DNA from: a virus | Length of the DNA: 64,000 nt | Reading direction: 5' to 3' (one strand) | IMG/VR virus record: IMGVR_UViG_3300036795_000143 | Coordinates: 1-64,000 of that record | Shown: positions 3,204-56,050 of the stretch, one piece after another | Layout: the number at the start of each line of letters is the position of its first letter | Numbering within the stretch: position 1 is the stretch's first letter | Made by a program: the position numbers and the translations under genes | Notes under the pieces: generated by a model | Databases searched by the model: none | What the model was told of the DNA's origin: nothing | Seen by the model: only the letters and a program-made list of their open reading frames with translations

Positions 3204-3365
3204 TCAGCCAGCGCCCGACCGGGGTCGGTGGTGTTTGCCGAACAACTTTGGGGGAGGTTGGTGACGTCTGCCGAACTGCGGTGGGGGCAGGCATCCATGC
3301 AGTTGGCATTCACGCAGGCGGGCGAGGATCCGTGCCACTAAGGCGCGGTCTGCGTCCACGGTCAC
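3204..3365 (-). CDS. Very small basic protein
   Basis: A 53-residue frame beginning at GTG with a strong GGAGGGGAG site five bases upstream. It starts with an amphipathic helix (ALVARILARLREC), then CQLHGC and a proline/arginine/histidine-rich tail. The strong ribosome site is the main reason for the call. It is the first minus-strand gene facing away from the XRE regulator. Confidence 0.5.
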   Translation of the reverse strand: MTVDADRALVARILARLRECQLHGCLPPPQFGRRHQPPPKLFGKHHRPRSGAG

Positions 3366-3420
3366 GACTCCCCTCCGTCGGTGGGGTCCTTCCGGCGCTC
3401 AGGGCTACCGCCTGGCGCTG

Positions 3421-4414: not shown

Positions 4415-4624
4415 ATGGAATTGCTTGACCTGACCTCCGCTAAGTGGAGGAAGTCCAAGCGCAGTCAGGCTCAGACCAACTGCGTTGAGGTCGCCAAGGT
4501 GGGTGGCGTGCGCGCCATCCAAGATAGTAAGAACCCGCACAAGTCGGGCGGGGCTGTCCTGGTCGTAAGTCCCGATGCGTTCAGCGCATTTACTGCCGGT
4601 GTATGCGCTGGAGAGTTCGACTAA
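4415..4624 (+). CDS. DUF397 (BldB/AbaA-like) small protein
   Basis: A 69-residue protein with the DUF397 signature: AKWRKSKRSQAQTNCVEVA, then VRAIQDSKNP and a C-terminal FTAGVCAGEFD. The family includes BldB and partners of WhiJ-type XRE regulators in actinomycetes. Its place directly after such a regulator fits the usual pair, in which the small protein is thought to modulate DNA binding by its partner. The gene ends ten bases before a strong terminator. Confidence 0.9.
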   Translation: MELLDLTSAKWRKSKRSQAQTNCVEVAKVGGVRAIQDSKNPHKSGGAVLVVSPDAFSAFTAGVCAGEFD

Positions 4625-4633
4625 CACCACACC

Positions 4634-4690
4634 GAACTAGGGCCTCCCGTCCGAAGAGGTAACGGACGGGAGGCCCTAGTTCTGTTTTTA
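4634..4690 (+). terminator. Rho-independent terminator
   Basis: A perfect 20-bp stem (4634-4653 with 4663-4682), nine-base loop and TGTTTTTA tail directly after the DUF397 gene. It also overlaps the end of the convergent gene at 4688 and can act as a barrier for it. Confidence 0.9.
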
Positions 4691-5530
4691 GTGCTGCGGC
4701 TGCGGCATCAGCACGGGCGAGGGATCCAGACAGACCTGGTAGTGAATCATTTTGGTGCCATCGGGGGTGAAAAGCGACAACGTCATGAAAGGTACAGTCA
4801 CTTCGCTGCCCTCGTGCCGGGTGAACGTCACCCGGCCAGTGGTCACCGTGCGGTCACCCTCCACCTGCCAATAATCGTCCACGTCATGCCTCACGGAGAC
4901 AATCAGAGAAAAGAAGCCCTCCGTGAATTCTGTTATCGCGAGGCGCCCGACTACGGGCTCGAAATTGCCCCATCGGAGTGTGCCATCTTTAGTGAAATAT
5001 GAGGCGAAAGCAGCGGCCCTCTTGGAATCAACCTCATCGAGTAGGTCATTGAAAAACCGTTCGCCCATGACTTTCGGTTCTTGTAGGAGTAGCCGAGCGG
5101 CCCTGGTGCCGGCTTTCCCCTCGTCCGGTACCCGAACCCGCATGGGGCGCTGCTCCTCGCGCGATATCCGCAGCGCCTCGGGAGTCCTGATCAACTCAGT
5201 CGGTGCCTCAGGGCGGGCAGGATGTGGCAGATCTAACAGGGCCCACATCGCTCCATCTGGTTCCCCTACCCAGGCCCACACGCAGTTGTCGTCGCCGGTG
5301 TCCGGCGGGTTCAGCGCGTCGGCGGGCTTGACTAGTCGCGCCGCTGCTGCCGGACCGTCCACGCGCAGCGTAAGCACGTCGAAGTGCTCTGACCACTCGT
5401 AGACGCAGATCACCGCCGTGGGGCGGTCCTTGGGTCCGCAGCAGTACGCGATGAATCCGTCGTTGACCAGAGCTTGGAACAGCGCATCGATCAGATCTTC
5501 TTGTTTCTGAGCAGCAGCGACCACGACCAT
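4688..5530 (-). CDS. Protein with C-terminal NTF2/SnoaL-like domain
   Basis: A 280-residue protein. The first half resembles a small alpha-beta domain (VNDGFIAYCCG, then VICVYEWSEHFDVLTLRVDG). The last 110 residues have the order of an NTF2/SnoaL-like fold: FFNDLLDEVDSKRAAAFASYF, TLRWGN, then alternating strands ending in MTLSLFTPDGTKMIHYQVCLDP. SnoaL-like domains are small-molecule binding or isomerase folds, but no catalytic residues can be assigned here. It is a single gene convergent with the regulator pair and may be a moron gene. Confidence 0.6.
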   Translation of the reverse strand: MVVVAAAQKQEDLIDALFQALVNDGFIAYCCGPKDRPTAVICVYEWSEHFDVLTLRVDGPAAAARLVKPADALNPPDTGDDNCVWAWVGEPDGAMWALLDLPHPARPEAPTELIRTPEALRISREEQRPMRVRVPDEGKAGTRAARLLLQEPKVMGERFFNDLLDEVDSKRAAAFASYFTKDGTLRWGNFEPVVGRLAITEFTEGFFSLIVSVRHDVDDYWQVEGDRTVTTGRVTFTRHEGSEVTVPFMTLSLFTPDGTKMIHYQVCLDPSPVLMPQPQH

Positions 5531-5801
5531 GTTCGTTCACCTCACGTTCTCACTGTCCGACACCACCTACCGCACAGCACCGTGGTCGGTGTACAAGCTA
5601 ATGTCAACTCGCTCAAAAGTCCCGTGAAGATGCTCGTGCAGCTGCGTGTTCACAGCGACTGTCCGTGACCGTCAGAGCCTCCGTCGTGCCTCATAGTTAC
5701 CCCCTGAGTGTCACCGAAGGTGCGTTATCGTGGGCGCGCGCGTCCTCGGGTTGCGGCAGGTCGCGTGGGTCAGCCCACCAGCACCCAAAGAAGGAGAGCG
5801 A
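5531..5801. other. Divergent intergenic region
   Basis: 270 bases between the minus-strand gene starting at 5530 and the plus-strand gene at 5802. A TTGACA on the minus strand (5607-5602) could be a -35, though no good -10 follows at 17-18 bases. CACCG-ACCA-CGGTG near 5580 forms a small hairpin. A clear AAGGAG site precedes 5802. I see no gene in it. Confidence 0.4.
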
Positions 5802-6029
5802 ATGAGTTCGCCTATCGAGGACTCGTCGTGGGCCGATAGCAGGTGGGGGCAGGCGTACCTAAAGATCCGAGCCTTCCAAGCGACCGGCGCAGCAGACGAG
5901 GAGGTCGATGTTTTCACGGCACTCCTAGAGAAGGAGTGCCCTCCACCTGAAACCTCAGAGGAACACGCGCAGTACGCGCTGGTCCAGGCCCAAGCAATAC
6001 GGGACGCACAGGAGGCGAAAGCAAGATGA
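5802..6029 (+). CDS. Small acidic protein, partner of a DUF397 gene
   Basis: A 75-residue acidic protein with strong GAAGGAG upstream. It is largely helical by composition (AYLKIRAFQATG, VDVFTALLEKEC, AQYALVQAQAIRDAQEAKAR). It overlaps the following DUF397 gene as ATGA, so it takes the place usually held by an XRE regulator, yet no helix-turn-helix is visible. Function unknown. Confidence 0.7.
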   Translation: MSSPIEDSSWADSRWGQAYLKIRAFQATGAADEEVDVFTALLEKECPPPETSEEHAQYALVQAQAIRDAQEAKAR

Positions 6030-49644: not shown

Positions 49645-50127
49645 CCACCTAGGCGGTACGAAGCCTAGGGACGTCCAGGCAGCTAACCCGCGAGGGAACC
49701 ACCTAGGACGCCGCCCTGATGATCGCAACTGGGCAAAACCGATTCTTCCGGATCGGGTGTCTCGAACTTGACCCCGTTCTAGGTGGCCCTGGCAGTAGAT
49801 CATTTACTGAGGTGCGGGGTTACGGAGGTGATCCGTTTGTCGGACCCTTCCCAGCTAATGGAGGCGACCGCGTGAGCGGCCTAATTGCCCTCTATGCCAC
49901 CAGACACCCTATCCGGGTATTTCCTTAGGTAAACCGAGTGCGGTAAGCCGCGCCGTGGCTGCGATGTTTGGATGATCTTACCCACATTGCCCCGGTGCGC
50001 GGCCTCGGTTCACCACATCGCAGATGTTGCCAGACCGACTAGGTCCGCTGGTGAGCCGTAATGGCGCCGCAGGTGGCAATCCCGGGCTATGCCCGTGCGA
50101 GCGGTTCGATTCCGTCGTTTGCGGCCA
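49645..50127 (+). ncRNA. Candidate structured RNA with tRNA-like 3' end
   Basis: About 480 bases without a credible gene but with many helices: 49648-49654/49663-49669 (7 bp), 49699-49710/49775-49786 (12 bp, one G-U), CCGC-GTGA-GCGG at 49868-49879, 49932-49938/50004-50010 plus 49947-49953/49997-50003, crossed by 49959-49967/50015-50023 (pseudoknot), 50006-50015/50049-50058, and 50066-50074/50117-50125. The last helix encloses a T-arm-like loop TTCGATT and ends with GCCA at 50124-50127. The region ends 32 bases before the next start codon. Confidence 0.55.
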
Positions 50128-50159
50128 CTCGAAACAAACAAATCCAGGAGGTTCGACCC

Positions 50160-50416: not shown

Positions 50417-50602
50417 GTGTGCGAGATCAAACGGAATGCCGCTGTCACCGGTACGTATTGCCTAGCGTGCGACATTGTGCACGTGGCATATGGCGCGACG
50501 TTAGCGGAATGGTCGGCAGTGTGTAGGGACGCGGAACGCATTAAGCGCGTCGCGGTACTCGATCTAGTTCTCGCTGCCGCTGCCGCTGCGTTAACGCGCT
50601 AG
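50417..50602 (+). CDS. Small Cys/His protein
   Basis: A 61-residue protein with TTAGGAG before the GTG. CEIKRN, CLACDIVH and a second Cys at residue 36 could form a metal site; the rest is an alanine-rich helix. Its TAG stop is the start of the first two-hairpin element. Confidence 0.6.
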   Translation: MCEIKRNAAVTGTYCLACDIVHVAYGATLAEWSAVCRDAERIKRVAVLDLVLAAAAAALTR

Positions 50603-50660
50603 CGCGTTTCCTGACTGTCCAGCTCGCACGGCTGGACAGTTTGGGATGCCCGCTAGGGCA
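50598..50660 (+). promoter_or_regulatory. Two-hairpin start-associated element, copy A
   Basis: CTAGCGCGTTTCCTG, then hairpin 1 with ACTGTCCAG/CTGGACAGT around a short loop, then GGGA and hairpin 2 TGCCC-GCTA-GGGCA. CTAGCG near the start can also pair with CGCTAG inside hairpin 2. It ends 27 bases before the ATG at 50688, and its CTAG holds the stop codon of the gene before. Confidence 0.85.
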
Positions 50661-50687
50661 GAGTCACGAATCTGAGGATGGCGCGTC

Positions 50688-50891
50688 ATGCGTTCGACTA
50701 TCACTCTCGAATCCCCTACTACTGTCACCCTGACTCATTCGGCCAGCTGTGCGGCTGCGCTTATCGCGTCCGATGCGCTGCGGTTGGCATTGCGGACCGA
50801 AACGAACCACACGGTTATACGGCAGATGAATACCACGCTGGCCGCCGTGTCCGCTCTGCGCAACGTGACCCATAAGCACTGCCAGCACTAG
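50688..50891 (+). CDS. Small helical protein
   Basis: A 67-residue protein. TITLESPTTVTLTHSASCAAALIASDALRLALRTETNHTVIRQMNTTLAAVSAL is a strand followed by helices. First gene behind the two-hairpin element. Unknown function. Confidence 0.6.
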   Translation: MRSTITLESPTTVTLTHSASCAAALIASDALRLALRTETNHTVIRQMNTTLAAVSALRNVTHKHCQH

Positions 50892-50937
50892 CCCACGTTT
50901 CGCCCACCGCAACGCGCCGCACGATTAAGGGTTAACC

Positions 50938-51075
50938 ATGTTCACAGTGTTTCGGATCTTTGTTTACGCGGTGAGGACGTACCCGGAAGTGCGCGCGCTG
51001 GTACTCGTTATCGGTTCGTGCCTTCTGGTTTGCTGCCTTATCTCCTGGTATCGCATGGTGGTGCCACTCCGATGA
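50938..51075 (+). CDS. Very small membrane protein
   Basis: A 45-residue protein with AAGGGTTAACC upstream of ATG. One transmembrane helix (ALVLVIGSCLLVCCLISWY) with basic residues on both sides. ATGA overlap with the next gene. Confidence 0.6.
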   Translation: MFTVFRIFVYAVRTYPEVRALVLVIGSCLLVCCLISWYRMVVPLR

Positions 51076-51323
51076 TTGATACCGCAATCGATCGTGAGGC
51101 CAGTCCGGCGCAGAATACCCGCTGGCTTCGACGGATGACTACTGCCCCGGCTATCAAGGGTCACAAGCTACAGCGCGGAACCGCTACCGCGTGGTGTGAG
51201 TGTGGATATTACTGCGGCACGACTACGTCACACGTAGTGCAGCACGGTGGCGCAGATCATATCGAGCCACCTGACGACGTTAATACGCGCCACGATTTGC
51301 ACCGCGTCATTATCGGCCGCTAG
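51072..51323 (+). CDS. Small Cys/His protein
   Basis: An 83-residue protein. Residues 39-57 (WCECGYYCGTTTSHVVQHG) combine three Cys and two His, resembling the ExxCxCG...H patterns of small actinophage zinc proteins. Its TAG stop lies in copy B of the two-hairpin element. Confidence 0.65.
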   Translation: MIDTAIDREASPAQNTRWLRRMTTAPAIKGHKLQRGTATAWCECGYYCGTTTSHVVQHGGADHIEPPDDVNTRHDLHRVIIGR

Positions 51324-51375
51324 CGCGTTTCCTGGCCGTCCAGTCGCTGGACGGTTTGGGATGCCCGCTAGGGCA
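51319..51375 (+). promoter_or_regulatory. Two-hairpin start-associated element, copy B
   Basis: Same layout as copy A. Hairpin 1 here is GCCGTCCAG-TCG-CTGGACGGT: the third pair is C-G where copy A has T-A, a compensatory change. Hairpin 2 is identical. It ends 40 bases before ATG 51416. Confidence 0.85.
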
Positions 51376-51415
51376 TCAATCGCCCACCGCATTACCGAAT
51401 ATAGGAGAATTTGTC

Positions 51416-52468
51416 ATGTCGAAGCAGACTATCGAATGGTTGAACACAAACGTGCTGGTCGGAATGACCGACGCACGCGGCAACGCGTGGCACTACCGGC
51501 AGAGCGCACAAGGTACGGAGTCGAATCACTACGCGGGTGCTATTCCGATCGAAGACGTCCGGCGTCGGTTGTTCTCCTGGGATGCGGTACCAGCGCGCGT
51601 GGCCGTCGAGGTCGCCGCGACAATGGAGAATGCAACCCACCTATCCGATGACGGGGTGCCGCTGCGGTGGGCAGTCCAGGAGGATCGCAAGGCAATCACC
51701 GCGTCCGACGACGGCACCGTGTTTGAAATGTTCAAATCCGGCTACACATCGCACCAATACAGCGAATGGCTACTGTCGAACGTGGGAACCATCCTCGATG
51801 GTGATCTCGGCATTAGTTCGGCTGGATTGCTCAGCAATCGTGGCGTGGCGTGGGTCGAGGTGGGAGTGCCGGAAACGATTAAGGGTCCGGCCGGTGTCGA
51901 TTTCCGCCCCAATTTGGTGGCGTGCACGTCGCACGATGGCACGCTATCGACGACGTACAAACGAACCGTTACCGCGACAGTGTGCGATAACACGCTAGCC
52001 GCTGCCCTAGGTGAGAAAGGGCAGACGGTGAAAGTCAAGCATTCGAAGTATTCCGGGCTGCGGATCACCGATGCGCGGGTAGCGCTGGCCATGGTCACCG
52101 AAACAGCGGACGCGTTCGCCGATCAGGTCCGACGTTTGACTGATTGGAAAGTCGGACCGTTACAGCTGAAGACGGTCATTAACGCGTTGGTGCCCGTGCC
52201 TGATGAGACGGGTAGGGCTAAGACAATCGCAGAGAAGAAGCAAGGCGAGATTCTGGCGCTTCTGGCTAATGATCTGCGTGTCCAGCCGTGGGCTGGTACC
52301 GCGTTCGGTGTTGTCCAGGCGTTCAACACTTGGACCCATCACATTAAGGGCACCCGTGGCAACGATGGCGGAGGCCGGGCAGAGCGAAACATGCTTTCCG
52401 CTCTGGACGGCAGCACCGATAAGTCAGACGCCATGGTCCTTAGCGTGCTGGCCGCCACGAACGTCTAG
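51416..52468 (+). CDS. DUF932 phage/plasmid-like protein
   Basis: A 350-residue protein of the DUF932 family, typical of phages and plasmids. Features: AIPIEDVRRRLFSWDAVPARV near the start, VFEMFKSGYTSHQYSEWLLSNV, VAWVEVGVPETIKGPAGVDFRPNLVACTSHDGTLSTTYKRTVTATVCDNTLAAAL, VKVKHSKYSGLRITDARVAL and RAERNMLSALDGSTDKSDAMVLSVL at the end. The exact function is not known; the middle part resembles proteins produced early in infection. Preceded by copy B. Confidence 0.85.
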   Translation: MSKQTIEWLNTNVLVGMTDARGNAWHYRQSAQGTESNHYAGAIPIEDVRRRLFSWDAVPARVAVEVAATMENATHLSDDGVPLRWAVQEDRKAITASDDGTVFEMFKSGYTSHQYSEWLLSNVGTILDGDLGISSAGLLSNRGVAWVEVGVPETIKGPAGVDFRPNLVACTSHDGTLSTTYKRTVTATVCDNTLAAALGEKGQTVKVKHSKYSGLRITDARVALAMVTETADAFADQVRRLTDWKVGPLQLKTVINALVPVPDETGRAKTIAEKKQGEILALLANDLRVQPWAGTAFGVVQAFNTWTHHIKGTRGNDGGGRAERNMLSALDGSTDKSDAMVLSVLAATNV

Positions 52469-52482
52469 GCCGTGTCGCATCA

Positions 52483-52541
52483 CCTAGCGCGTTTCCTGCC
52501 GTCCAGCTCACCGCTGGGCGGCTGGGATGCCCGCTAGGGCA
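52483..52541 (+). promoter_or_regulatory. Two-hairpin start-associated element, copy C
   Basis: CCTAGCGCGTTTCCTG, hairpin 1 CCGTCCAGC/GCTGGGCGG (one T-G wobble), hairpin 2 TGCCC-GCTA-GGGCA. It ends 33 bases before ATG 52575. Here the stop codon of the gene upstream lies about 15 bases earlier, so the motif does not need to contain it. Confidence 0.85.
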
Positions 52542-52574
52542 CAGACCACCAAATCCAGCGGGAAGGACAGAATC

Positions 52575-53090
52575 ATGCCAGAAACCACCGTTAACGTAGA
52601 CACCGAGATCACCCGTGACGATATCCGCGCCATGCGTATGGCCGATTCCGTCCACTTCCATACTTATCAAGGGCGTTCGTGGATCGTTGCCGAACTGCGG
52701 AATTACGGCCTAGGCCGTATCTACACTGCGACCGAGCAACGGTTATTCTCCGAGGTCCGTAAGTACGGCGCCGATCGTTGCCGTGAGATCGCGGTAGCTA
52801 CTCAACGGCTAGAGGACTACTCCGGCCGTACTGGCGAGTATCAAGCGTTTGCCTCATTCTGCCCTAAGGAAGTGTGGCTGACTATCGTGGCAGCATTACG
52901 GCCGGGCGATATTCTCGGTTTCCATTGGGTCAGGTCGAACAATTCCGAGAGTATGCGGACGATTGGTTACCATCACGATCAGCTACGGCTGATTGCCAGC
53001 ACTCCAGAGCACAAGAATAACCGTCACTGGATTGTCCAAGACCAGTTTGGTCCGGATAATTCCGCGCGGATGGTGCTACGGAATGTTTAG
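52575..53090 (+). CDS. Protein of unknown function
   Basis: A 171-residue protein with GGAAGGAC upstream. FHTYQGRSWIVAELRNYGLGRIYTATEQRLFSEVRKYG and AALRPGDILGFHWVRSNNSESMRTIGYHHDQLRLIA, then WIVQDQFGPDNSARMVLR form an alpha-beta protein of a type I associate with actinobacterial plasmids. Function unknown. Confidence 0.65.
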   Translation: MPETTVNVDTEITRDDIRAMRMADSVHFHTYQGRSWIVAELRNYGLGRIYTATEQRLFSEVRKYGADRCREIAVATQRLEDYSGRTGEYQAFASFCPKEVWLTIVAALRPGDILGFHWVRSNNSESMRTIGYHHDQLRLIASTPEHKNNRHWIVQDQFGPDNSARMVLRNV

Positions 53091-53177
53091 CTCGCCTGGA
53101 TATGTTCCGCGCTGCTCACTTCGGGGGTGAGCGGTCGCGGTGGATAGTCCAGTCTCCAGCCGAAAGGATCCACTGCA

Positions 53178-53789
53178 ATGAGTAGCGACGTTGTCGAAGT
53201 CGACATGAACACCCTCACCATTCCGCGTGTGACCGTGCTTACCGGTCACACTTCCCCCGATACCGCGTACCTAGTAGAAGATTACCCCTATGGGCGCCGT
53301 TTGCGTTGCAAGATCCGCTATTGGATTGAGACAGCGGCTAAGGGCACGGCGAGGGGTCAACAGCGTTTCATGGCGCAGACCACTAACCCTAGGTCGCCTG
53401 AGCCGCACGACGTGTGGAATAGGCCGAAGGCCAGCACGTATTCGCAGATTATGGTTATGTACTTGGACGATATCGACCACGTGCATGCCTGGCACATTCC
53501 GTTGTGGATTGAGGGTACGTTCGACGCTCGCACTCGCGCGATGGGTATTTATGCCGGTTTGTCAAGTTACCAGCGGCAGCTATATGACGATATGCTCGCA
53601 TTCTCTCACAAGCATAACTCGATTAGGTGGGAGGATTACCACGATCGGGTGTCGACGCTAGCCGAATGGATCGCCACTATTGGAATGGCGCCGACGCTGC
53701 GGAACAACGTCTGGTCAAACGGCAATCGCCAGTTCTACCTCAGCGATCCCGCTGCGTACGTAACCGCAGCACGCGCGGCAATCGCCTAA
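53178..53789 (+). CDS. Conserved phage/plasmid protein, unknown function
   Basis: A 203-residue protein. Core pattern YGRRLRCKIRYWIETAAKG, QQRFMAQTTNPRSPEPHDVWNRPKASTYSQIMVMYLDDIDHVHAW is widespread among mycobacterial and other actinobacterial phages and plasmids. The rest is helical. No enzyme motif visible. CGAAAGGATC precedes the ATG, and an imperfect hairpin (GCTCAC/GTGAGC) takes the place of the two-hairpin element upstream. Confidence 0.7.
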   Translation: MSSDVVEVDMNTLTIPRVTVLTGHTSPDTAYLVEDYPYGRRLRCKIRYWIETAAKGTARGQQRFMAQTTNPRSPEPHDVWNRPKASTYSQIMVMYLDDIDHVHAWHIPLWIEGTFDARTRAMGIYAGLSSYQRQLYDDMLAFSHKHNSIRWEDYHDRVSTLAEWIATIGMAPTLRNNVWSNGNRQFYLSDPAAYVTAARAAIA

Positions 53790-53799
53790 GGCGAATGGT

Positions 53800-53819
53800 G
53801 CGGGATGCCCGCTAGGGCA
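53800..53819 (+). promoter_or_regulatory. Two-hairpin element, copy D (truncated)
   Basis: Only GCGGGATGCCCGCTAGGGCA remains: hairpin 2 with the GGGA before it. Hairpin 1 and the CTAGCG start are missing; a small CGCC-TAA-GGCG stem over the stop codon takes their place. Ends 37 bases before 53857. Confidence 0.8.
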
Positions 53820-53856
53820 ACATCCGGAAATTCCGACGTGATGGAAGTGAGTAGCC

Positions 53857-54195
53857 GTGGACGGTTATTTGATGATCACTTTGGTGGTCAAAGCAGGCGA
53901 TGATCCTGCCCGTGCGAGGTCGAACGCAATCGGACGGCTTAACGAGTGGGTGACTGATCGGACGCTAGGCGGTTTCAATGGTGAGCCAAATCGTCCGGGT
54001 GCGCTTCTGCATTACTCAGTGCACGATGACACGGAAACGGCAGACGTCGCGGCGCAAGCGGCTGTAGTGGTTTCCGATGGTATGCACGCGGCAGCGTGTA
54101 AAGCGTTCGATGACACGCTCGCATGGCTAGGGCCACAGTGTGACCGGTCCGCACTCCGTGCGGCTGTTAAGGCAGCTCTCAATTACAGCGCCTAG
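53857..54195 (+). CDS. Protein of unknown function
   Basis: A 112-residue protein. LMITLVVKAGDDPARARSNAIGRLNEWVTDRTLGGFNGEPNRPGALLHYSVHDD, then two helices. GTG 53857 is a possible start, with ATG 53872 five codons later; neither has a strong ribosome site. Stop codon inside copy E. Confidence 0.6.
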   Translation: MDGYLMITLVVKAGDDPARARSNAIGRLNEWVTDRTLGGFNGEPNRPGALLHYSVHDDTETADVAAQAAVVVSDGMHAAACKAFDDTLAWLGPQCDRSALRAAVKAALNYSA

Positions 54196-54250
54196 CGCGT
54201 TTCCTGCCGTCCAGCTGCCACGGCTGGATAGCGGGATGCCCGCTAGGGCA
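54191..54250 (+). promoter_or_regulatory. Two-hairpin start-associated element, copy E
   Basis: CCTAGCGCGTTTCCTG, hairpin 1 CGTCCAGC/GCTGGATAG (one mismatch or wobble), hairpin 2 identical to the others. Ends 29 bases before ATG 54280; its TAG is the stop of the gene before. Confidence 0.85.
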
Positions 54251-54279
54251 ATCTATCTAGCCCTAAGGATGGCCACATC

Positions 54280-55122
54280 ATGAGCGATTACAGCGCCGAA
54301 ACGAGCGCACCAATCAGGAATAAAGCGGGTACGTTCCGTGTCCGTGTCGAATACGATCAGGATGGTACTGGTAACCCGCGTGACAATGATTGCAACACGG
54401 GCACCATGGTCCTATCTCACCGTGGCTATAACTTGCCGAGTGAAGGGGACGTCTCGTTCATCGATCAAATCGATAGGGCTATGGAGCGTGGCGGGCCGCT
54501 CCTAGCGGCACGGTATTTGCGGTATTTGACTTTGACCACAGCGGCTAACGCGGTAGTCCTCACCGTCTACGGGTACGACCACGGGCAACTGAGGCTTAAG
54601 GCAGGCGAGCGTACAGGCAGCTTTGCCGATAAGTGGGATTCTGGTATCGCGGGTGTGATCTACGCGCTACGCGACGATATCGCTAAGGCTCACGAGGGCT
54701 ATCCGATGCCTAGCGATGACGATATCGCCACCTGGCTTAAGAGTGAGGTCCAGGAGTACGACACGTGGGCTAACGGTGAAATGACCGGCTTTATCGTCGA
54801 GGTGCAGTGCGGTAAGTGCCAGGCATGGCGACACGTCGATTCATGTTGGGGCTTCTATAGCGTGAGCGACGCAATGGAGCAAGGCACCGACCAAATACCG
54901 GCTGATCTTAATGGTGTCGAACGCTGCGAGTGTGAGTGGAAGCTGCCGCACCCGTTGAGCGATGCGGCTAGGGCAGTCATCGCGGCAATGTTTGGGGACG
55001 TTAATAGGTCCGGCGTTTCCGCACCGGATGCCGTATGGACCGAGATTCAGCAGGCTTTCCCGTTCGAGCTATTCGAGAATAGGCCGGACGCAGTGACTTA
55101 CGATCCAGAAGCGGGATGGTAA
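54280..55122 (+). CDS. Widespread phage protein, unknown function
   Basis: A 280-residue protein. NPRDNDCNTGTMVLSHRGYNL, VVLTVYGYDHGQLRLKAGERTGSFADKWDSGIAGVIYALRDDI, a helical EVQEYDTWANGEMTGFIVEV and DSCWGFYSVSDAM are the ordered motifs of a protein found in many phages of Gram-positive and Gram-negative hosts. Function is not established. This copy carries an inserted CGKCQAW and a CEC pair, so it may bind zinc. Confidence 0.8.
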   Translation: MSDYSAETSAPIRNKAGTFRVRVEYDQDGTGNPRDNDCNTGTMVLSHRGYNLPSEGDVSFIDQIDRAMERGGPLLAARYLRYLTLTTAANAVVLTVYGYDHGQLRLKAGERTGSFADKWDSGIAGVIYALRDDIAKAHEGYPMPSDDDIATWLKSEVQEYDTWANGEMTGFIVEVQCGKCQAWRHVDSCWGFYSVSDAMEQGTDQIPADLNGVERCECEWKLPHPLSDAARAVIAAMFGDVNRSGVSAPDAVWTEIQQAFPFELFENRPDAVTYDPEAGW

Positions 55123-55126
55123 ACCA

Positions 55127-55528
55127 ATGATCACGATGGCGATAGACCTTAGTATGGGCGGTCCGGACGTCGATACCGTGCCGAGTGAGCTAGCTACGAT
55201 CCTCCGTGAACTGGCTACGCGCGTGGAGCGTGGCGAGGCCAGCGGACCTATCCGCGACGTTAACCGGAAACGGATAGGAGCGTTTAGCGTTACCGCGCCG
55301 TTAGTGCCGTGCGTCTACTGCGGTAAGCCGGTCGACTATGACCCGCTTGATCCGACGGACGGAGACGTGACCGATAAGGATGGTTTACCGGATTGTTGGG
55401 ATGCGCCTAGGCGCGAGTGCCAGGAATGCGGTAGCAATGGCGAGGATGACCCCGGATGCGGTGAGTGTAGCGATACCGGAAACTCATGGATGGGTCTTCA
55501 CGCGGTAAGAGCACAAGATGAGTCGTAA
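55127..55528 (+). CDS. Protein with DnaJ-like zinc motifs
   Basis: A 133-residue protein. CVYCGKPVDYDP near residue 64, then CQECGSNGEDDPGCGECSDTGN holds CxxCxxxG repeats as in DnaJ zinc domains. The N-terminal half is helical (VPSELATILRELATRVERGEASG). Probably a nucleic-acid- or protein-binding adaptor. Confidence 0.7.
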   Translation: MITMAIDLSMGGPDVDTVPSELATILRELATRVERGEASGPIRDVNRKRIGAFSVTAPLVPCVYCGKPVDYDPLDPTDGDVTDKDGLPDCWDAPRRECQECGSNGEDDPGCGECSDTGNSWMGLHAVRAQDES

Positions 55529-55533
55529 GTGCG

Positions 55534-55596
55534 TTGTCCAGGCGCCCGACCACCCGACTAGGGGGGGCCGGGCGTTTGGCCTGCCCGCTTAGGGCA
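55534..55596 (+). promoter_or_regulatory. Two-hairpin element, copy F (diverged)
   Basis: Hairpin 1 is changed to CGCCCG/CGGGCG with a long loop; hairpin 2 is TGCCC-GCTTA-GGGCA with one extra base in the loop. It ends 41 bases before ATG 55638. The overall layout is kept while the sequence of hairpin 1 is not. Confidence 0.7.
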
Positions 55597-55637
55597 ACTA
55601 CCGCAGCACCGAACCCTAGCTAGGAAGGCTGGACACA

Positions 55638-55892
55638 ATGACCGGAAACGATGGCAATACCGAACGGGTGGAAGCTGCGCACGTCGCGCTTAGGGCGTTC
55701 GCTGGACACTGCGGGCCGGATGAATACGGCACCAATCTAGGCGACCCTGATGAGTTTCTCACCATTGCGGGTGACCTGATCGCTAACCTCTTGCACGCTG
55801 CGGACGCGGTAGACGTTGACGCGGACACATTGCTAGGCCGCGCAATCTTGCACTACTCAGCGGAAAGCACCACGCCGTACGACTTGCCCTAA
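55638..55892 (+). CDS. Small acidic protein
   Basis: An 84-residue helical protein (VEAAHVALRAFAGHCGPDEYGTNLGDPDEFLTIAGDLIANLLHAADAV). TAGGAAGG upstream. Its last 20 residues (LLGRAILHYSAES) are repeated in a short frame downstream at 55933-55995. Unknown function. Confidence 0.65.
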   Translation: MTGNDGNTERVEAAHVALRAFAGHCGPDEYGTNLGDPDEFLTIAGDLIANLLHAADAVDVDADTLLGRAILHYSAESTTPYDLP

Positions 55893-55932
55893 CCGCACCA
55901 CCCGAACCACGGGAAATCTCGCGAGCGTTGAT

Positions 55933-55995
55933 ATGGACCAATTGCTAAGCCGCGCCATCCTTCACTATTCAGCGGAAAGCAACGACGTTCCCTAG
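55933..55995 (+). pseudogene. Duplicated 3' end of the preceding gene
   Basis: A 20-residue open frame beginning MDQLLSRAILHYSAES, closely matching the C-terminus of the 55638-55892 protein. About 60 bases are shared at DNA level with scattered changes. It has no clear ribosome site and is best seen as a remnant of a tandem duplication; a functional micro-peptide is not excluded. Its stop codon falls in copy G. Confidence 0.65.
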
Positions 55996-56050
55996 GCGTT
56001 TCCTGACTGTCCAGCCGTGAGCTGGACAGTGCGGGATGCCCGCTAGGGCA
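55991..56050 (+). promoter_or_regulatory. Two-hairpin start-associated element, copy G
   Basis: CCTAGGCGTTTCCTG, hairpin 1 ACTGTCCAGC/GCTGGACAGT (10 bp perfect, T-A at the variable pair as in copy A), hairpin 2 identical. Ends 32 bases before ATG 56083. Confidence 0.85.

Follow-up and report, generated by a model that had tools for sequence, protein, structure and literature searches.

We describe a repeated element at gene junctions in a 64,000-nucleotide (nt) stretch of viral DNA (positions 1-64000 of IMG/VR record IMGVR_UViG_3300036795_000143, which has 79,278 bases; hereafter the window). In each full copy a short lead sequence is complementary to the loop and flanking stem bases of a downstream hairpin (hairpin 2) and can draw them into a long rod, so that the RNA has two folds that exclude each other. 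Lead and loop change in pairs, the same design recurs in other actinobacterial viruses, and masking the region of the upstream stop codon flips the fold in silico. That the element acts at the RNA level is well supported. The reading that we favour, tentatively and with slightly less than even confidence, treats every full copy as a bistable, translation-gated RNA between two cistrons of a phage operon, the output of which would be cleavage of the rod and punctuation of the message; we infer that ribosomes gate the choice of fold inside cells, with the consequences modelled below.

The terminase is similar to terminases of Rhodococcus, Arthrobacter, and Mycobacterium phages, and the record is actinophage-like. 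Small genes lie in a run on the + strand at 50.4-56.6 kb, most of them without known function and one encoding a DUF932 protein. The hairpin TGCCC[GCTA]GGGCA (loop GCTTA in copy F) is present at seven junctions, all on one strand and 27-41 nt 5' of the next start codon. An earlier note, made from the letters alone, had listed seven such hairpins at distances of 27, 40, 33, 37, 29, 41, and 32 nt from start codons; all of the distances proved exact, and the seven copies (A to G, Table 1) were borne out as six exact matches to TGCCCGCTAGGGCA (all on the + strand, 50647-56050; 0.68 expected when up to two mismatches are allowed) and the copy F version, TGCCCGCTTAGGGCA. The note had also placed a lead and second hairpin in five copies and had described copy D as lacking the first hairpin. 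In agreement with this, CTAGCGCGTTTCCTG is present unchanged in four copies (A, B, C, and E) and lacks one base in copy G, and hairpin 2 is all that copy D has. Hairpin 2 consists of a 5-base-pair (bp) stem and a 4-5 nt loop, with arms identical in 7/7 copies, the rod-less copy D included, and the 18 nt of GGGATGCCCGCTAGGGCA are identical in six of the seven. No TGCCC[GCTA]GGGCA was found in the remaining 15 kb of the record beyond the window. A covariance model of the window element recovered six copies, with E values from 1e-13 to 3e-19, and gave no seventh across the 79-kb record.

A rod of 23-28 bp can be drawn in copies A, B, C, E, F, and G. Its 5' arm begins with the lead CTAGCG (TAAGTG in copy F), the partner of which, CGCTAG (CGCTTA in copy F), is the hairpin 2 loop together with the flanking stem bases; beyond the lead, the rod runs via a C.C mismatch, GU:GC, a U.U mismatch, and UCC:GGA into stem 1. 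Because the rod takes the loop and both flanks of hairpin 2, rod and hairpin 2 cannot coexist, and the suggestion in the earlier note that two folds compete is right. Its picture of two hairpins stands as the alternative form, but the free minimum-energy fold in context is one long rod in all six full copies. When the bare elements were folded without flanks, copies F and G favoured two hairpins, and in a longer context the copy G lead pairs instead with a downstream CCTAGGG near the Shine-Dalgarno (SD) sequence. One could also envisage an H-type pseudoknot, in which hairpin 2 persists while its loop also pairs with the lead, given that lead and loop are complementary in all full window copies and in most others examined. 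However, the complementarity spans the whole 4-5 nt loop and extends to the 3' strand of the hairpin 2 stem, so that no linker nucleotides remain to cross the helix, and the rod also consumes the 5' strand of hairpin 2. We consider the pseudoknot highly improbable and dropped it on geometry, as judged without a three-dimensional model.

Across the six window copies, 97.5% of the rod cells are paired and seven pairs show changes on both sides, and neither value was reached in any of 500 shuffles; slid-alignment controls for the rod gave 33-43% paired. The sequence of copy F had been described as simply replaced, which is not the case, as both arms have changed with the rod pairing retained: its lead-loop helix survives two double changes (C-G to U-A and U-A to A-U), and its stem 1 keeps its pairing with a new sequence. 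The earlier reading had overlooked this compensation, as well as the overlap of the lead with the upstream stop codon that is taken up below. A functionless mobile repeat that spread recently, its pairing merely inherited, would account for the closeness of copies A-C, E, and G to one another and for a sequence known from this record alone, but it leaves unexplained the two-arm changes of copy F (0/500 shuffles) and the same architecture elsewhere in unrelated sequence, and is the least probable of the explanations that we considered. At 21-29 bp (median 26), the rods are irregular intercistronic duplexes spanning some two turns of helix, which is the form of an RNase III processing site between cistrons. 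In most copies' predicted folds neither the start codon nor the SD sequence is sequestered, and no intrinsic terminator (a GC-rich hairpin followed by a U run) was predicted at any copy.

The DUF932 gene could be traced to further phages, where the design is present in other letters. In the IMG/VR contig G001 (L010), the lead GTGAGT accompanies CGGGT[NCTC]ACCCG three times and CCGGTC accompanies CGGCY[GACC]GGCCG twice. Contig G003 has five GTGAGC or GTGAGT copies and one CCGGTC copy, and in two copies hairpin 2 has changed from CGGGT..ACCCG to GGGGT..ACCCC. The Gordonia phages Guey18, Fryberger, and Keelan (Ronaldovirus) carry a rod and hairpin 2, with loops of 5-6 nt, at most junctions of a small-gene run, where the leads CTGTGT, CTGAAT, CTGAGT, CCTAGT, and CTGATT match ACACAG, ATTCAG, ACTCAG, ACTAGG, and AATCAG, respectively. 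The host of these three phages is a laboratory strain of Gordonia. When the Ronaldovirus hairpin 2 was picked blind to the lead, the cognate score was 6.0 versus 4.1, a result matched in 0/20000 permutations (15 nonredundant copies). In 12 Ronaldovirus copies the lead-loop helix is 97% paired with 12 double-change cells, and hairpin 2 is 100% paired with nine, each with 0/500 shuffles; these are two covarying, mutually exclusive helices that share one invariant G. Three copies were found in the Gordonia Orchidvirus phage Orchid. A descriptor scan of whole sequences was unspecific apart from Guey18, which gave 14 matches versus 1-6 when permuted. No excess of the architecture was detected in the Rhodococcus phages Trogglehumper, REQ1, Shagrat, and Madraxi or in Jayden and the L089-L099 contigs, nor a clear excess in Marvin.

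The letters of the window element itself were found nowhere else. Exact and degenerate patterns gave only chance matches in IMG/VR and GTDB genomes, and a BLAST search of the region against phage records returned the DUF932 gene only. The covariance model that the earlier note had called for recovered the six window copies but none in other genomes, with one match in the relative L088 at 6240 (E 0.02) and two weaker matches judged to be chance. At the gathering score, Rfam gave only tRNAs in the window and no match at the junctions of L067, L066, and L010, and at E<=1 it gave nothing relevant within 50.5-56.1 kb.

These comparisons bear on what kind of molecule is read. The proposal of an RNA-level element is sustained by paired changes, wobbles, placement at junctions on the sense strand, recurrence, and two covarying helices, although the note had left undecided whether the element serves control, processing, or protein binding. 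A DNA-level element, such as a repressor or replication site or a short homology at gene joints that promotes cassette exchange, would fit the inverted repeats, which the covariance model scores on the other strand too, and cluster O phages have DNA-like 17-bp repeats, one pair of which flanks an inserted gene (PMC4351075). Such an element would also fit the comparison with L088, in which genes 52575 and 53178 are present at 83% identity; the end of the common block (52602-53785) falls between copies C and D, and in L088 the equivalent of gene 52575 starts a few nucleotides past the previous stop codon without an element, so that copy C is absent there. The comparison indicates that junction elements are gained or lost together with their neighbours. 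In contrast, wobbles and double changes are retained, every copy is in the transcription sense directly 5' of a start, and two overlapping helices covary in Ronaldovirus, and we regard an action at the DNA level as improbable. A phage or host RNA-binding protein that recognizes hairpin 2 and marks a regulon, with the rod governing access, is rather unlikely, if less so than a DNA site. The identity of GGGATGCCCGCTAGGGCA in six of the seven copies exceeds the needs of pairing, and copy D keeps hairpin 2 alone; however, recent copying within one genome also yields identity, and the stems and loops of hairpin 2 vary freely in other phages, even within one genome, which argues that no fixed sequence is read there.

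The lead contains the stop codon of the upstream gene in copies A, B, E, and F. The lead of copy G holds the in-frame stop codon of a duplicated remnant of the preceding gene: the 3' end of gene 55638-55892 is duplicated (56 nt, 82% identical; 55814-55981), and the stop codon of the remnant lies inside the copy. A strict reading of the lead as an anti-stop-codon sequence, or anticodon mimic, was abandoned because the stop codon is not fixed within the lead, its position ranging from inside the lead to several nucleotides beside it. A terminating ribosome was mimicked in silico by forcing the stop codon and the 9 nt past it to be unpaired (for copy C, the TAG of the lead was used), and this masking switched 6/6 window copies from rod to hairpin 2. 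With a switch defined as a loop that pairs with the lead when the RNA is free and a hairpin 2 that forms when the stop region is masked, it was predicted in 35 of 44 copies from the window and other phages, as compared with 51/220 shuffled leads (23%), 36/220 leads taken from another phage (16%), 44/220 whole shuffles (20%), 36/193 stop codons of other open reading frames (ORFs) in the window's record, and 1/18 tRNA-like junctions. The copies of Guey18, Keelan, and the mycobacteriophage Rey, which were chosen by gap length only, switched in 15/24 cases.

In the model that we favour, an upstream stop codon free of ribosomes would leave the lead free to capture the hairpin 2 loop and some of the stem, closing a rod of about 23-28 bp. 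A terminating ribosome over the lead would block the rod, and hairpin 2 would then form some 30-40 nt before the next start codon. The rod could be cut by a double-strand-specific endonuclease, for example RNase III, after which the freed 3' part would refold into hairpin 2 and might shield the 5' end thus created on the downstream mRNA; a ribosome on the stop codon would postpone the cut. A processing output is preferred on three grounds: the length of the rods, about two turns of helix; the punctuation of the early mRNA of T7 by RNase III sites (PMC4858673); and the tRNA-like substrates that relatives have at the same junctions. The main rival to processing is translation insulation, in which the element tunes re-initiation on the next gene: structure after the stop codon would block scanning and make the genes independent with no cleavage. 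This is the next most probable explanation, though an unlikely one. In its favour are the position of the element between stop and start codons, the stop codon in or near the lead, and the start codon and SD that stay free in most predicted folds; in a screen cited in a review (PMC12548453), predicted structure just past the upstream stop codon was negatively correlated with coupling efficiency. A plain hairpin would suffice for insulation, however, and the match of the lead to the hairpin 2 loop would be left unexplained. The tRNA-like elements at the same junctions in relatives point to processing.

Several observations weigh against a translation-gated, cleaved rod. The upstream stop codon of copy C lies about 17 nt 5' of the lead, near or beyond the reach of a ribosome, and copy D has no rod whatever. 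The overlap of lead and stop codon in the window is weak evidence by itself, since any TAG there will by chance close one of the three reading frames. The two-sided changes in the window fall mostly in copy F, and, as hairpin 2 is invariant there, its support within the window is conservation only. The 12 Ronaldovirus rows were registered by hand, and the copies of G001, G003, and Orchid were in part selected by their lead-loop match. In Rey, a cluster M phage, junctions with a rod and hairpin 2 are weakly distinguished from chance (866/20000 permutations), with a switch at 3/7 junctions. RNase III as the reader of the rod is a guess from rod length, and the reading as a whole is drawn from sequence and in-silico folding.

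With these reservations, we suggest, a shade less confidently than for the window itself, that an RNA-switch class conserved in architecture and not in sequence may punctuate the operons of many actinobacterial phages, such that termination on one cistron would set the fold, and hence the processing or expression, of the next, with tRNA-like modules in that place in some relatives. Several examples that are unrelated in sequence are here given one anatomy, from which a mechanism and the mutations to test it can be predicted. If the suggestion is true, phage polycistronic mRNA is punctuated by modules able to sense whether a ribosome occupies the stop codon before them.

Other junction elements were noted in the window and its relatives (Table 1). 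The second-family element before start 53178 is conserved in L088, which has two copies (2623-2707 and 3327-3410), and the outer stem of this family changes on both sides (CTGGA/TCCAG, CTGG/CCAG, and GGTTG/CAACC). The tRNA-like element before the first small gene of the run has a conserved counterpart at 1605-1715 of L088, before the first small gene there. Elements of this kind, about 95 nt long, precede many small genes in the Mycobacterium phages MrMiyagi (L083 10344-17519), Nilo (L084 8914-14562), and Konstantine (L085 10217-13100), where they consist of an acceptor-like stem, a T-arm GGTTCGANTCC, CACGA or similar, and a 7-bp hairpin. ARAGORN did not call these elements tRNAs, and tRNA punctuation, with the elements as processing signals, is a possible role. 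L088 contains several copies of a palindromic repeat, GGGGAACCTGCCCCGCGGGGCAGGTTCCCC (4580-5990), a start-associated repeat, CACTCACCGAATC..GGGAGACA, lies a few nucleotides before many start codons in the Rhodococcus phage Trogglehumper (L011 3555-9585), and a Pistol ribozyme match (36.9 bits versus an Rfam gathering score of 34.5) was found in the Gordonia phage Orchid (L066 9561-9634).

Table 1. Junction elements in the window and their relation to neighbouring stop and start codons.
Feature	Position	Strand	Remarks
Copy A	50599..50660	+	lead CTAGCG 50599-50604; stop TAG of upstream ORF 50600-50602; rod 50599-50656
Copy A, hairpin 2	50647-50660	+	27 nt before start 50688
Copy B	51320..51375	+	lead 51320-51325; stop TAG 51321-51323; rod to 51371
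Copy B, hairpin 2	51362-51375	+	40 nt before start 51416 (DUF932 protein gene)
Copy C	52484..52541	+	lead 52484-52489; upstream stop earlier, at 52466-52468; rod to 52537
Copy C, hairpin 2	52528-52541	+	33 nt before start 52575
Copy D	53806..53819	+	hairpin 2 alone, preceded by GGGA; no rod; 37 nt before GTG start 53857
Copy E	54192..54250	+	lead 54192-54197; stop TAG 54193-54195; rod to 54246
Copy E, hairpin 2	54237-54250	+	29 nt before start 54280
Copy F	55526..55596	+	lead TAAGTG 55526-55531; stop TAA 55526-55528; stem 1 replaced; rod to 55591
Copy F, hairpin 2, TGCCC[GCTTA]GGGCA	55582-55596	+	41 nt before start 55638
Copy G	55990..56050	+	lead CCCTAG(GCG) 55990-55998; rod to about 56048
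Copy G, hairpin 2	56037-56050	+	32 nt before start 56083
Second-family element, TTCCGCGCTGCTCAC..GTGAGCGGTCGCGG	53100..53165	+	before start 53178; conserved in L088
tRNA-like element, T-arm-like GGTTCGATTCC	50062..50140	+	before first small gene, start 50160

Repeats at actinophage gene starts, such as the start-associated sequences (SAS) and extended SAS (ESAS) of cluster K and the conserved repeats (CR) of cluster M, have been reported for more than ten years and their function is unknown. The SAS of cluster K mycobacteriophages is the 13-bp GGGATAGGAGCCC, located 3-7 bp from the start codon (PMC3203893). Like the window element, SAS and ESAS occur in many copies, in one orientation, before the starts of small non-structural genes, and about half of the SAS have an upstream inverted repeat with a variable spacer (PMC3203893). 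The earlier note had drawn this comparison, and the layout is indeed alike, but the resemblance stops there. The window element lies 27-41 nt from the start, overlaps the upstream stop codon, and has support for pairing at the RNA level, whereas for the ESAS inverted repeats the authors saw no support for RNA pairing and favoured DNA-binding proteins (PMC3203893). A search of the window for GGGATAGGAGCCC gave one match at two mismatches, inside a tRNA gene, with 1.5 expected. In cluster M, CR1-CR4 lie between many genes at the right end of the genome, with stem-loops upstream of CR3 and CR4 (PMC7953290, citing a 2014 paper on the cluster). They resemble the window element as junction repeats with stem-loops, and the member Rey shows the rod and hairpin 2 junctions described above; the sequences appear to be unrelated to those of the window.

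In the literature covered, to which the original 2014 description of cluster M did not belong, neither competition between a lead and a loop nor anchoring at a stop codon was found described. Start-associated repeats with inverted-repeat extensions and the junction stem-loops of cluster M are already known. The early genes of T7 have five intercistronic RNase III sites, irregular long stems that split one polycistronic mRNA (PMC4858673). The rods of the window are likewise irregular long stems between genes, which may be cleaved. We know of no competing second hairpin or stop-codon lead at the T7 sites. Attenuators, and translational coupling through RNA unfolding (PMC12548453), are like the model in that a ribosome at a set codon masks one strand and switches the fold; in contrast to these, the window element has no predicted terminator and, in most copies, no sequestered start site, the strand that would be masked is that of a stop codon, and many junctions have a copy of the unit.

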